From a virus, in IMG/VR virus record IMGVR_UViG_3300009128_000060, positions 1-37,510 of that record: a stretch of DNA of 37,510 nt; one strand, 5' to 3'. A model generated the notes under the pieces. The model worked only from the letters and a program-made list of their open reading frames with translations. It was not told the DNA's origin and ran no database searches. Below, piece by piece: positions 2,820 to 6,856 of this stretch (within the stretch, counting starts at the first letter, position 1; every line of letters starts with the position of its first letter). The translations under genes and the position numbers were made by a program.

Positions 2820-3241
2820 TTTATTTCTTCTGGGTCAGGAATTACTAAGTTTAATTCCATTGAAGCCCATCTTTTAATACTTTCTATATATTCACTAAAT
2901 TCTGTTGTTAAAAGCTCTGTAGTAGAACAAGGGACTATTTTAATTTCATTACGCCACTTTATTTCTTTTTTAGGAGCAAACATCTGTTTTAAAATTTCAT
3001 GAATTAAATTTCTTTCTTGTTCATTATTAAAATCAGATCCATTTTCATCACAAATCATTTTAACAACAACCGCCCAATAATATTTATTAGATTGAATAGT
3101 CCGTCTTTTACCTTTTTCTGCAACAGTAACTTCTACATTCTTTCCATTAAGGGAATAGATATAGTCATTAAACCTTTTAGGGTTTATCAGTTTTAGCTTG
3201 GCTTTTTCTATTGAGCCGTAGAAGATTGGTGTTGGTTTCAT
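2816..3241 (-). CDS. NinB-like recombination protein
   Basis: A 141-residue protein, matching lambda NinB (Orf) in length. Recognisable features are the N-terminal strand SLNGKNVEVTVAEKGKRRT, the QSNKYYWAVVVKMI helix, a conserved HEILKQMF, STTELLTTEFSEYIESIKRWA and the IPDPEE end. In lambda, NinB/Orf is a recombination mediator that binds single-stranded DNA and SSB. The gene overlaps its neighbours by 4 nt on both sides (ATGA-type) and lies about 4 kb downstream of an ssDNA-binding-like gene, consistent with DNA metabolism. Confidence comes from motif recognition only. Confidence 0.75.
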   Translation of the reverse strand: MKPTPIFYGSIEKAKLKLINPKRFNDYIYSLNGKNVEVTVAEKGKRRTIQSNKYYWAVVVKMICDENGSDFNNEQERNLIHEILKQMFAPKKEIKWRNEIKIVPCSTTELLTTEFSEYIESIKRWASMELNLVIPDPEEIK

Positions 3242-3444
3242 AACCTAAATAGTTTAAAAATAAATCTTTTCCATCTAGAAATTTCAATATCATACATACA
3301 AAGATATAAATCAGCTATCATTTCAAAAATCTCTTCTTCTGTCCTGCCTTGAGTCATGTATCTATTTCCGTCTGGTAAATAACAATAGGCTAAATAAAAC
3401 CCATCCTCTTTCCAAATATTAAACTTATATTTTCCTTCTATCAT
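3238..3444 (-). CDS. HicB-like orphan protein
   Basis: The 68-residue product has the HicB/UPF0150-type core: WKEDGFYLAYCYLPDGNRY, then TQGRTEEEIFEMIADLYLCM, a partial RNase H-like antitoxin fold. No HicA-like toxin (about 60 residues with a dsRBD-like His) was found beside it, and there is no C-terminal DNA-binding domain; the protein ends in a basic hydrophobic tail (RWKRFIFKLFRL). An orphan antitoxin-like protein could counter a host HicA, but that is inference. Confidence 0.55.
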   Translation of the reverse strand: MIEGKYKFNIWKEDGFYLAYCYLPDGNRYMTQGRTEEEIFEMIADLYLCMYDIEISRWKRFIFKLFRL

Positions 3445-3554
3445 TTTCTTCTATAATTACATCTAAAATTACTACACTTATCTACCTCTTTATTTTTAGA
3501 AGCGATGTATTGTTTTACTAATTTAGATTTGCATTGCGGGCAACGTTTAGACAT
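3441..3554 (-). CDS. 37-residue zinc-ribbon protein
   Basis: MSKRCPQCKSKLVKQYIASK opens a tiny zinc ribbon: CPQC and, about 22 residues on, CSNFRC. ATG 3554 comes right after the stop of the ATP-grasp gene, with the AATAATATG-type leader, and the TGA overlaps the HicB-like start. The function is unknown. Confidence 0.6.
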   Translation of the reverse strand: MSKRCPQCKSKLVKQYIASKNKEVDKCSNFRCNYRRK

Positions 3555-3555
3555 A

Positions 3556-4293
3556 TTATTTATTTTTACAGTTTGGATAATGATAGCTTCTTCCACCAAC
3601 AGCCATATCTGTTAACCACCATAAACCATTTTTATCTTGTAAAAAATCTACTGACCAGTATCCAGTAAACCATCTACCAACATATTTGGCCATTAATTCA
3701 AGTTCTTTTTCGTCTTTTTTACCTAACCTTTGTAATTTTTGTAAATTAACTTTGCTTATACCATTTTGTCCAAATGCTTCTCTTGGCCAATAAGGATGAT
3801 TACAAATTACTTTTCCTTTATTTATAAACATCCTACGCTCTTTAACGATTGGCATACTGTTAAAATGTGTAAAAATTGGTTTAGTTGGTATAAGTTCTCT
3901 TACCGCCCAAATTGAATAATCAAATGGTAGTCCAGCTATATTAGCTAGACAAGAATGTTCTACTAAATTAGCAACATGCGATATTAAATATTTATCGTCT
4001 AAATTATCTATATAACAAGTATCTTTCCAAGAATGCTTATCACTTGTCATACCAGTTCTCAAAAAACAAGGCAGTCCAATTTCATTAATGGCACTTTTTA
4101 ATCTTTTAGCAAATGGATTATAACCATAAGGTCTTTTACCGTCTGCTAGAACACCTAATTTACAATCACTAGAATCAACCATAATTGTTTTTGGCACTCT
4201 CATTCCTATTTGCTTCAATAAAGGAAACCAATAAGACATATTATTTTTATTTTCTTCCTCGTAATCTGTCTTTTGTTCAAATGGATTCTTCAT
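3556..4293 (-). CDS. ATP-grasp-like protein
   Basis: A 245-residue protein resembling the ATP-grasp fold used by carboxylate-amine ligases. Cues: a strand/loop with Arg (LPCFLRTGMTSDKHSW, about 74-89), REL at 132-134, the IVKERRMFINKGKVICNHPYW segment in two halves (about 149-169), and acidic candidates Asp216 in GYWSVDFLQD and Asp229 in WWLTDMAVGGRSYH for metal binding. The substrate cannot be inferred. It starts 11 nt after the end of the Cys-rich gene, with an ATAATATG leader. It could modify a peptide or small molecule during infection. Confidence 0.6.
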   Translation of the reverse strand: MKNPFEQKTDYEEENKNNMSYWFPLLKQIGMRVPKTIMVDSSDCKLGVLADGKRPYGYNPFAKRLKSAINEIGLPCFLRTGMTSDKHSWKDTCYIDNLDDKYLISHVANLVEHSCLANIAGLPFDYSIWAVRELIPTKPIFTHFNSMPIVKERRMFINKGKVICNHPYWPREAFGQNGISKVNLQKLQRLGKKDEKELELMAKYVGRWFTGYWSVDFLQDKNGLWWLTDMAVGGRSYHYPNCKNK

Positions 4294-4817: not shown

Positions 4818-5081
4818 TTATCTTTTATCATTATATAAATCTCTATGGCAAGTAGGACATTTCCATTGGGCCATAAAGTTCTTTTTATTTTTCTCCCAAC
4901 ATCCGTCTTTTCCAGCTCCGCCAGCAAATCCTAATGCTTCTAAATGATACCAAGTTCCTGATAAAGATTTTAACTTAATCGCTTTTCTAATTTCATCTAC
5001 TGTTGGACAACGATGATACTCTTCTCCATAATCTCTAATGAACTTTATAATTTCTATTCTTTTTTCTGGTTTATATTTCAT
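4818..5081 (-). CDS. Winged-helix plus zinc-knuckle protein
   Basis: 87 residues in two parts. Residues 1-55 resemble the LexA-type N-terminal winged helix: EIIKFIRDYGEEYHRCPTVD, EIRKAIKLKSLSGTWYHLEA. The C-terminus carries WKCPTCHRDLYND, a single C-x2-C knuckle, with another Cys at GCWEK. There is no LexA protease part. It overlaps the MTase stop by 4 nt (ATGA). A small transcription regulator is likely; its target is unknown. Confidence 0.6.
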   Translation of the reverse strand: MKYKPEKRIEIIKFIRDYGEEYHRCPTVDEIRKAIKLKSLSGTWYHLEALGFAGGAGKDGCWEKNKKNFMAQWKCPTCHRDLYNDKR

Positions 5082-6218
5082 AATAAAGTATCTTGTTTTA
5101 ATCTTTTATTGCAAAGTTTTATATATTCAGGATTGAGTTCAATGCCGACATAATTTCTACTAAGATAACGAGCTACTTCGGCAGTTGTGCCACTCCCCAT
5201 AAAAATATCTAATACTATCCCTTTTGGCGGACAACCAGCTTTAATCGGTGTAACAACAAGTTCTTTAGGAAAAATTGCAAAGTGTGCATCTTTATACCCT
5301 TTAGGTGGTATTTTCCAGACAGTTCTTTTATTCCTGCCTTTAGACATATCCATAATTGCATATCTTGATAATACATCCATAGAAGATTGAGCTTTATTAT
5401 TTTTATCAGTTTTATGTATTTCAGGATTATATTGTTCGTTATTTTCAATAAATTTTTTTGCTCTATTAATTGAAACTTCTGCCATTGGTTCTGTCTGTTG
5501 TTCAAAATAATATTTCTTATTCTTAACAAAGAAAAATATCTTTTCAAAATCTACTGTAAATCTATCATCTGCTGAACTAGGCATACAATTAGGTTTATAC
5601 CAGATAATTTCATTACGGAGTATCCAACCTCTATTCGTCATTTCTATTGCAAAACGAGAAGGAATTTGAATAAGACATTTATCAGATATTCTATAGTCTG
5701 GATTTAATTTAGGCTCTATATGAACTTCTTTATTTTTTGTTAAAGAATGATTAACACCATCTTTTTTTCTTTGGCCTCTTGAATAAGTATCGCCAATATT
5801 AACCCAACAAGTTCCTTCTTTTTTTAAAACTCGTTTTACCTCGTCAAAAATATCACAGAGTTTATTAATGTATTCTTGGAATGTAGGCTCAAGTCCGAGT
5901 TGTCTGTCAACTCTCTTAGCTCCACATTTACCACAAATCTCTTTATAAATTGCATCTCCAACTGCGTGTCCTTTTTCCGCCATTGCTTTATGTCCAGTAG
6001 CAGTATTTTCACTTTTCTTACTATCTCGCCAATGATTACAATCTTTCTTACCACCTTCCCAAGTAGCAGTTCCATAATCTCTAAGGGCTCATTTACCAAT
6101 ACGGTGGACTTGTGATTACCATATCCACACATTCGTCTGGAAAGGTTTTGAGAACACTTAATGCTTCCCCACAAACCACCGTATTTATTTTTTCTTTGAA
6201 TGTTTTTTGCGATGACAT
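5078..6218 (-). pseudogene. DNA methyltransferase split by a 7-nt insertion
   Basis: The first frame (ATG 6218 to TAA 6093, 41 residues) ends ...DMVITSPPYW, catalytic motif IV of N6A/N4C MTases. The remainder, in a shifted frame from 6088 down to 5078, continues ALRDYGTATWEGG and includes DIFMGSGTT (AdoMet motif I) near the end, followed by YVGIELNPEYI. Motif IV before motif I is the beta-class order. Between TGG and GCC-CTT lies TAAATGA; removing these 7 nt restores SPPYWALRDYG. The first usable ATG for the rest is 5983, giving 301 residues without motif IV. The enzyme is therefore probably dead, or at best a two-polypeptide enzyme. The first frame overlaps the HNH 3' end. Confidence 0.85.
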
Positions 6219-6712
6219 ATTTCGCATAATGTTATTAAATTTTTAACCCTAAACCTTAATTCAGGATATGCCGACCACGGCTTTATATGATGAACTACTA
6301 ATTTATTTTTAGTGTGTCCAATACCACATTCCTGACATTTATATTTATCCCGTTTAAGTATGGATTTTGCTAATTCTTTCCAAACACTACGAGCATATTG
6401 AGATTGTCTTTCTGGACTATGACCACCATTCCAATTGGGATTAGATTTTCCAGTTTTGCCAAACATTCCATTATCTTTTCCTTTTAATCCCCAATATTTT
6501 TTTAATCTTATTTCTGCTATATCTCTTGTCTTAATATTAAACTTTTTCAGAAAATACAATATATTGTTCTTTTTACATTTTTGTTCTATTGCTATCTGTT
6601 CTGCTGATTTTTCTTTTTTAATATATTCCGAAACAAGCCAATCTTTATTCCAATATGGTTTTGGCTTTCTGTAAGTATATCCTCTAACAAATTGTCCTTT
6701 TTTATTTCTCAT
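6185..6712 (-). CDS. HNH homing-type endonuclease
   Basis: 175 residues from ATG 6712 (MRNKKGQFVRGYTYRKPKPY). An upstream in-frame ATG at 6730 lies within the -10/spacer of the gene's own promoter and is less likely. Domains: an N-terminal helical region with a probable HTH (KSAEQIAIEQKCKKNNILYF), a NUMOD3-like segment (GMFGKTGKSNPNWNGG), then the HNH nuclease: CQECG, VVHHIKPWSAYP, LITLCEICHRKKH, with two C-x2-C zinc pairs. It sits between two broken MTase pieces, as expected for a mobile homing gene. It probably nicks or cuts MTase-gene DNA of relatives. Confidence 0.88.
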   Translation of the reverse strand: MRNKKGQFVRGYTYRKPKPYWNKDWLVSEYIKKEKSAEQIAIEQKCKKNNILYFLKKFNIKTRDIAEIRLKKYWGLKGKDNGMFGKTGKSNPNWNGGHSPERQSQYARSVWKELAKSILKRDKYKCQECGIGHTKNKLVVHHIKPWSAYPELRFRVKNLITLCEICHRKKHSKKK

Positions 6713-6718
6713 ACCTAC

Positions 6719-6747
6719 ATTATATACCATATTGGTCTATAAGTCAA
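6719..6747 (-). promoter_or_regulatory. Strong promoter predicting a leaderless HNH mRNA
   Basis: TTGACT (6747-6742), a 17-nt spacer and a consensus TATAAT (6724-6719) on the minus strand. The usual start point, 7 nt after the -10, falls on the A of ATG 6712, so the transcript would begin with AUG. The -35 lies just after the stop of the truncated MTase piece. Confidence 0.8.
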
Positions 6748-6748
6748 A

Positions 6749-6856
6749 TTACAAAGCCCAATAAGGTGGTGAAGTAATAACCATATCAATACTCTCGTCT
6801 GGGAATGTTTTAAGAATATCTAAACAATCTCCTTGATATATTTTATTTACTTCCAT
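6749..6856 (-). pseudogene. 5' fragment of a second DNA methyltransferase
   Basis: ATG 6856 starts MEVNKIYQGDCLDILKTFPD and ends ...MVITSPPYWAL then TAA, after 35 residues. This is the normal N-terminus of a beta-type MTase cut just after motif IV. It is clearly homologous to the N-terminal piece at 6218-6093 (GEALSVLKTFPDECVDMVITSPPYW). The break is within two codons of the insertion point in the other copy. No downstream MTase sequence follows; the HNH promoter begins directly. It is a remnant and could not methylate DNA alone. Confidence 0.85.

Follow-up and report, generated by a model that had tools for sequence, protein, structure and literature searches.

The cassette formed by mobA and gene 60 of phage T4 was reportedly described by Bonocora et al. 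in 2011. In this phage the HNH endonuclease gene mobA splits a gene, and a downstream 50-nt insertion that opens with a stop codon is thought to be protective against cleavage (PMC3014915, PMC5009743). A homing-type insertion of an HNH gene between conserved codons of a DNA methylase has been described in the mycobacteriophage ShiLan (PMC11855218), and mobile ORFs (mORFs) of fungal mitochondria are found in atp6 of Allomyces and in atp6, cox2, nad3 and atp9 of Glomus (PMC3630166). The promoter of I-TevI, also from phage T4, overlaps an operator that resembles its homing site, which is the basis of autorepression (PMC2988022).

Here we compare with these systems a locus on the minus strand of the 37,510-nt linear IMG/VR contig IMGVR_UViG_3300009128_000060, the whole of which is referred to as the window. 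The locus probably represents an HNH homing-type cassette that became integrated at the motif IV codons of a methyltransferase (MTase) gene; besides the HNH gene, this cassette carries a promoter of its own and a foreign MTase 5' end. Its features are listed in 5' to 3' order on that strand.

6856-6752, minus strand: 5' piece of the MTase gene, read as native, MEVNKIYQGDCLDILKTFPDESIDMVITSPPYWAL, ending in SPPYWAL; GC 30.0, GC3 16.7, like the 3' piece and the genome
6747-6719, minus strand: left end of the insert, resembling a sigma70 promoter (TTGACT, 17-nt spacer, TATAAT; 11/12)
6735-6727, minus strand: candidate operator in the promoter spacer, CCAATATGG, the reverse complement of the motif IV codons CCATATTGG (P-Y-W)
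6712-6185, minus strand: HNH endonuclease gene, 175 aa; PF01844 2.3e-11, phrog_8446 5.5e-29
6218-6096, minus strand: second MTase 5' end, within the insert and read as foreign, MSSQKTFKEKINTVVCGEALSVLKTFPDECVDMVITSPPYW, ending in SPPYW; GC 43.3, GC3 36.7
6095-6089, minus strand: TAAATGA, 7-nt insertion at motif IV, with stops in two frames, TAA in frame 0 and TGA in +1
6088-5078, minus strand: 3' piece of the MTase gene, read as native, ALRDYG...DIFMGSGTT..., 336 codons, open to its own stop; PF01555 9.4e-45; GC 32.1, GC3 17.0

The SPPYWAL of the left 5' piece is followed directly by TAA (6751-6749), and the start codon of the second 5' end is located inside the HNH gene. The insert, made up of the promoter-like site, the HNH gene and the foreign 5' end, amounts to 663 bp. 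The host gene is best explained as a beta-class N6/N4 DNA MTase of the phage, split at the motif IV codons (SPPYW). Reading and mapping of the letters confirmed what the initial annotation had described, namely two 5' pieces, an HNH gene, TAAATGA and an open 3' piece, together with an intact third MTase (36752-35961) that has an SPPYDNLRDY version of motif IV.

Behind this third MTase lies a second small HNH gene (35737-35492, minus strand). The 76-aa ORF directly upstream of it (35964-35734, minus strand) contains a C5-cytosine MTase fragment around motif IV, FDFIWSSPPCQSHSSFRQN (PF00145, E 0.024), which matches a Flavobacterium phage MTase at 79% over 19 aa; the stretch 35964-35492 is perhaps the trace of a comparable event in an MTase of a different class. 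A further small ORF (74 aa; 10468-10244, minus strand), the third that is HNH-like, gives weak domain scores that fall below the cut-off.

The 175-aa HNH protein scores above the PF01844 cut-off, and HH and four C residues are invariant across nine relatives. A structure model (mean pLDDT 73.5) has a predicted N-terminal helix-turn-helix, with blocks at about 85-93, joined to a C-terminal HNH domain by a linker of poor prediction quality; the closest solved structures are phage HNH nucleases, the nearest being 5h0m (GVE2 HNH). As in free-standing homing endonucleases, the gene has a recurrent position within a conserved host gene, of which uninterrupted alleles exist in other genomes. We collected 34-37 uninterrupted MTases for comparison, and those with SPPYW-x-LRDYG are common.

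Scanning of IMG/VR with the HNH protein and its alignments (loci found are given L-numbers) recovered relatives in L057 (67-68% identical), L054, L003/L004, L055, L056, the L058-L063 group and L064. These nearest IMG/VR relatives are 38-68% identical and every one is located in or against an MTase gene; a second, alignment-based scan of IMG/VR yielded no further close member. The tandem layout, in which the HNH gene is succeeded by a second MTase 5' end, is present in six loci (the window, L003, L054, L056, L057 and L064), and its recurrence in other uncultured phages shows the arrangement to be more than chance. In these loci the second 5' ends mostly start inside or overlapping the HNH gene. 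A truncated native 5' piece is found upstream of the HNH gene in 5/6 of them and is absent from L064, where the HNH gene is frameshifted. The host gene in L056 belongs to a different MTase subfamily, with SPPYDNL in place of SPPYW, the version that the initial annotation had taken to be spared. A search of IMG/VR for exact matches to a 24-mer from the window's second 5' end gave L064 alone.

A different arrangement is observed in L055 and L058-L063, in which the HNH gene splits the MTase downstream of motif IV, SPPYW/F is intact and there is no second 5' end. Each MTase half has its own start in L055 (4040-4580) and L058/L060 (3989-4560), and it is possible that these are genes in pieces that could still work. 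Motif IV is hence not the sole insertion point of this HNH clade, and target and insertion point may differ. The initial proposal of motif IV as the homing site accords with the location of all the nearest relatives in or against N6_N4 MTase genes, but it does not extend to these downstream splits. Intact MTases beside an HNH gene, which the initial annotation had named as speaking against homing, are preceded by distant HNHs (27-30% identical) in L065 and L078 and do not occur in the close clade.

Searches for the HNH protein outside IMG/VR gave a single partial match, near an MTase end in a Chloroflexi genome, among bacterial and archaeal genomes, and distant HNHs only among cultured phages. 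On the bacterial contig concerned (L123, Chloroflexi MAG JACCWY010000319.1, about 2964-3500), the HNH relative, 49% over its C-terminal part, is directly upstream of an MTase 3' end (DPFAGSGTT...). Among close relatives of the window phage, none with an empty site was found; a syntenic search via the neighbouring gene 7735-7157 retrieved relatives that are 35-46% identical and have no MTase there.

The initial annotation took the locus for two MTase copies broken alike. The junctions are as it had reported; composition, in contrast, argues for one native gene, with a foreign 5' piece in the insert. The GC content in the window is 30.0 in the left 5' piece, 29.4 in the HNH gene, 43.3 in the second 5' end and 32.1 in the 3' piece. 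Corresponding values are 47.8, 32.7, 34.4 and 44.1 in L057, where the flanks are at 42-44, and 39.4, 31.8 and 31.0 for the first three parts in L054, with a flank of 38; in L064 the second 5' end has 43.3 versus 33-36 around it. L003 fits this pattern mainly by third positions and L056 is non-discriminating. The parts that deviate in composition are the HNH gene and/or the second 5' end, whereas the left 5' piece and the 3' piece resemble the genome, and the simplest reading is therefore that a single native MTase gene is interrupted by an insert that includes a foreign 5' end. Native and foreign 5' ends are 81% identical in amino acids and 71% in nucleotides in L054, and 76% and 62% respectively in L057, a better agreement at the protein level that is as expected for genes that diverged under selection and were then joined. 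The second 5' ends are mostly closer to uninterrupted MTases or to the local left piece than to each other, which suggests, weakly on 30 residues, that the second 5' end may have been captured repeatedly. Protein similarity was tried as a guide to the origin of this end and was ambiguous on the 30 residues; composition was clearer.

At the second junction the window reads SPPYW-TAAATGA-ALRDYG, L064 SPPYW-TAAGG-QLRDYG, L057 SPPYWGL-TAATC-RDYG, L003 SPPYWGL-TAGCTA-RDYG and L056 SPPY-TGAC-DNLRTY. All of the readable second junctions (5/5) have an insertion of 4-7 nt that opens in an in-phase stop, although the placement of some is ambiguous by a few bases; L054 was left out because its contig ends inside motif IV. 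The MTase 3' pieces contain no further stop. Among MTases without the cassette a stop just after motif IV occurs in 1/37, this being L030 (about 3949-4000), in which a single TAA stands right after SPPYWSLRDY in an otherwise open gene with no adjoining HNH gene; this could be a scar without a cassette. The chance of a random codon being a stop here is 0.06-0.08, which gives about 1e-6 for five independent cases and about 2-5e-4 for three. With 82% nucleotide identity between their second 5' ends, the window and L064 may have inherited the stop from a common ancestor. That all five readable tandem copies have an insertion at the same place fits the initial suggestion of a repair scar or a protection, and by analogy with T4 the stop-led insertion is probably a scar of cleavage resistance. 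Protection alone does not explain why the insertions always open with a stop, because any indel would serve.

Phage MTases are dispensable and often decay, and L030 has a stop near motif IV but no HNH gene, so the locus might be viewed as two tandem MTase paralogues turned pseudogenes with an unrelated HNH gene between them by chance. Ordinary decay of this kind is nevertheless unlikely, as six loci share both the architecture and the HNH clade, the lesion is single and always at motif IV of genes that are otherwise open, stops are found at 5/5 readable tandem junctions versus 1/37 MTases without the cassette, and the composition is that of one split native gene. It is exceedingly unlikely that the arrangement is an assembly chimera or a sequencing error, for which one could point to the single metagenome contig of the window and to the end of the L054 contig inside motif IV, since different insertions occur at the same place in different samples and L003 and L004, which are two assemblies, agree across the whole 1840-bp locus. 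Owing to this identity, a comparison of L003 with L004 for selection on the 3' piece had zero differences to count.

Translation might in principle continue past the second junction, with ribosomes skipping or frameshifting over the stop-led insertion to give a working hybrid MTase, as in gene 60 of T4, where, alongside mobA, ribosomes bypass a gap of 50 nt whose first codon is a stop (PMC3014915, PMC5009743). The MTase 3' pieces are fully open and read-through is possible in L003. The sequence TAT TGA C in L056 is also similar to the RF2 frameshift site. However, the insertions are only 4-7 nt long and unstructured, and apart from the CTT/CTA pair of L003 there are no matching take-off and landing codons. 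A +1 shift at the window insertion runs into TGA, and with neither read-through nor frameshifting of any help a true hop would be needed. We consider bypass to be distinctly improbable, and programmed frameshifting was rejected as a general explanation because the window insertion has stops in two frames. The MTase at this locus is best explained as dead, as judged from the sequences, because the junction insertion would end translation in every readable case.

Group I introns often contain HNH genes, and a true intein is found in the same MTase family in L042, where an intein-like insert (about 3055-4010), a different mobile element, is located at KPNC|MPSS, another conserved stretch of the gene. 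It is nonetheless very unlikely that the insert described here is an intron or an intein with an HNH gene. Compared with Rfam at gathering scores, neither the window nor L003 gives a match, the approximately 40 nt between the left break and the HNH gene are all promoter, and 0 nt separate the HNH gene from the second 5' end; moreover, the native 5' piece in L003 lacks PPYW, such that splicing from the left piece cannot restore motif IV. An intein is ruled out by the stops, TAA at 6751-6749 and at 6095-6093. The adjacency of an HNH nuclease and an N6/N4 MTase might instead denote a restriction-modification pair, but all of the tandem loci have an interrupted MTase, which would leave the nuclease unopposed, the insertion lies inside the gene, and one HNH clade is associated with different MTase subfamilies; this too seems highly improbable.

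The left end of the insert is consistent with a self-contained cassette that brings its own promoter. The -10 element in the window ends 6 nt upstream of the HNH ATG, and the HNH mRNA may be leaderless, with transcription starting at about the ATG. The same element is found in the window, L054, L056 and L057 (TTGACA, TTGACT or TTGCTT, 16-17 nt, TATAAT or TATATT), and is separated in each case by exactly 6 nt from the HNH ATG. The spacers contain a string that matches the inverted PPYW codons at 8/10 positions in the window (CCAATATGG; 8/500 shuffles), 10/10 in L054 (CCAATATGGTGG; 0/500), 9/10 in L056 (CAATATGGTGG; 5/500) and 7/10 in L057 (83/500), and its distance to the -10 element varies between loci. 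Neither promoter nor inverted target is present in L003 and L064. The resemblance to I-TevI is suggestive of an operator, although the string might also be shared by descent.

In nine cassette-bearing records, CCNCCNTAYTGG is found at the broken copies and at the L054 promoter site, and in the L055 record at the split gene and one other place; in this search the intact target is nearly absent elsewhere in these genomes. This distribution, and the insertion into both SPPYW and SPPYDNL genes, point to the motif IV codons as the likely target. We infer cleavage, mobility, protection and autorepression from such comparisons of sequence. The HNH protein would introduce a cut or nick at the conserved SPPY(W) codons of MTase genes that are uninterrupted, and a cassette-bearing genome would then serve as repair template, so that the cassette is copied into the break. 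Joining of the foreign 5' end to the native 3' piece would rebuild an intact motif IV, and hence the target. The surviving copies would be those holding a small junction insertion that destroys the cleavage site, because the foreign 5' end would otherwise restore it. Rather doubtful, though conceivable, is that the foreign 5' end and the immediate stop are an obligate functional part of the element and not a scar, the front of the target gene being swapped for a diverged, stop-marked copy that would serve as built-in immunity or be skipped in translation. If so, the gene 60 arrangement of T4, unique until now, would have in these loci a small counterpart in kind that is spread over several phages.

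T4 mobA with gene 60 is the closest precedent. Both combine an HNH gene with a stop-led insertion in the downstream gene, but the T4 element targets a topoisomerase rather than motif IV of an MTase, its gap of 50 nt is bypassed by ribosomes whereas the insertions here are of 4-7 nt, with no landing codon in the window and no sign of bypass, and mobA is reported to be promoter-less (PMC2988022) while the present insert has its own promoter-like site and a foreign 5' end. For a long time the stop-led insertion of gene 60 beside a homing endonuclease was without parallel; what we observe is apparently a recurrent natural series of five junctions in two MTase subfamilies, on which the idea of protection could be tested directly with short substrates. 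ShiLan likewise has a short methylase-like stretch, closer in amino acids than in bases, and neither intron nor intein, but according to its description the methylase frame is kept open with the HNH gene out of frame, in contrast to the stops at both junctions here. In Aeh1 a free-standing HNH gene, mobE, similarly splits a coding gene, nrdA, at a functionally critical region (PMC2988022); the split nrdA stays functional, whereas here the catalytic motif is cut off from the rest by stops. I-TevI shares a promoter that overlaps a homing-site-like sequence, although it is a GIY-YIG enzyme within a group I intron for which this is proven, as opposed to an HNH gene without an intron and with a candidate operator. 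The fungal mORFs also bring a foreign end of the host gene, whose native end persists as a remnant; the two ends are conserved at the amino-acid level, whereas their bases have diverged. They bring 3' ends, the mirror image of the 5' end found here, and encode LAGLIDADG or GIY-YIG rather than HNH enzymes; being of another nuclease class and organism, they work alike and are not homologous, and the present cassette would be the phage counterpart of such elements that swap a host-gene end. Because many N6/N4 MTases have the motif IV codons in common, a target there would allow a single nuclease to spread between numerous genes, and would repeatedly inactivate phage methylation. The kind of element is already known from T4 mobA/gene 60, ShiLan and the fungal mORFs, and the variant described here is new.
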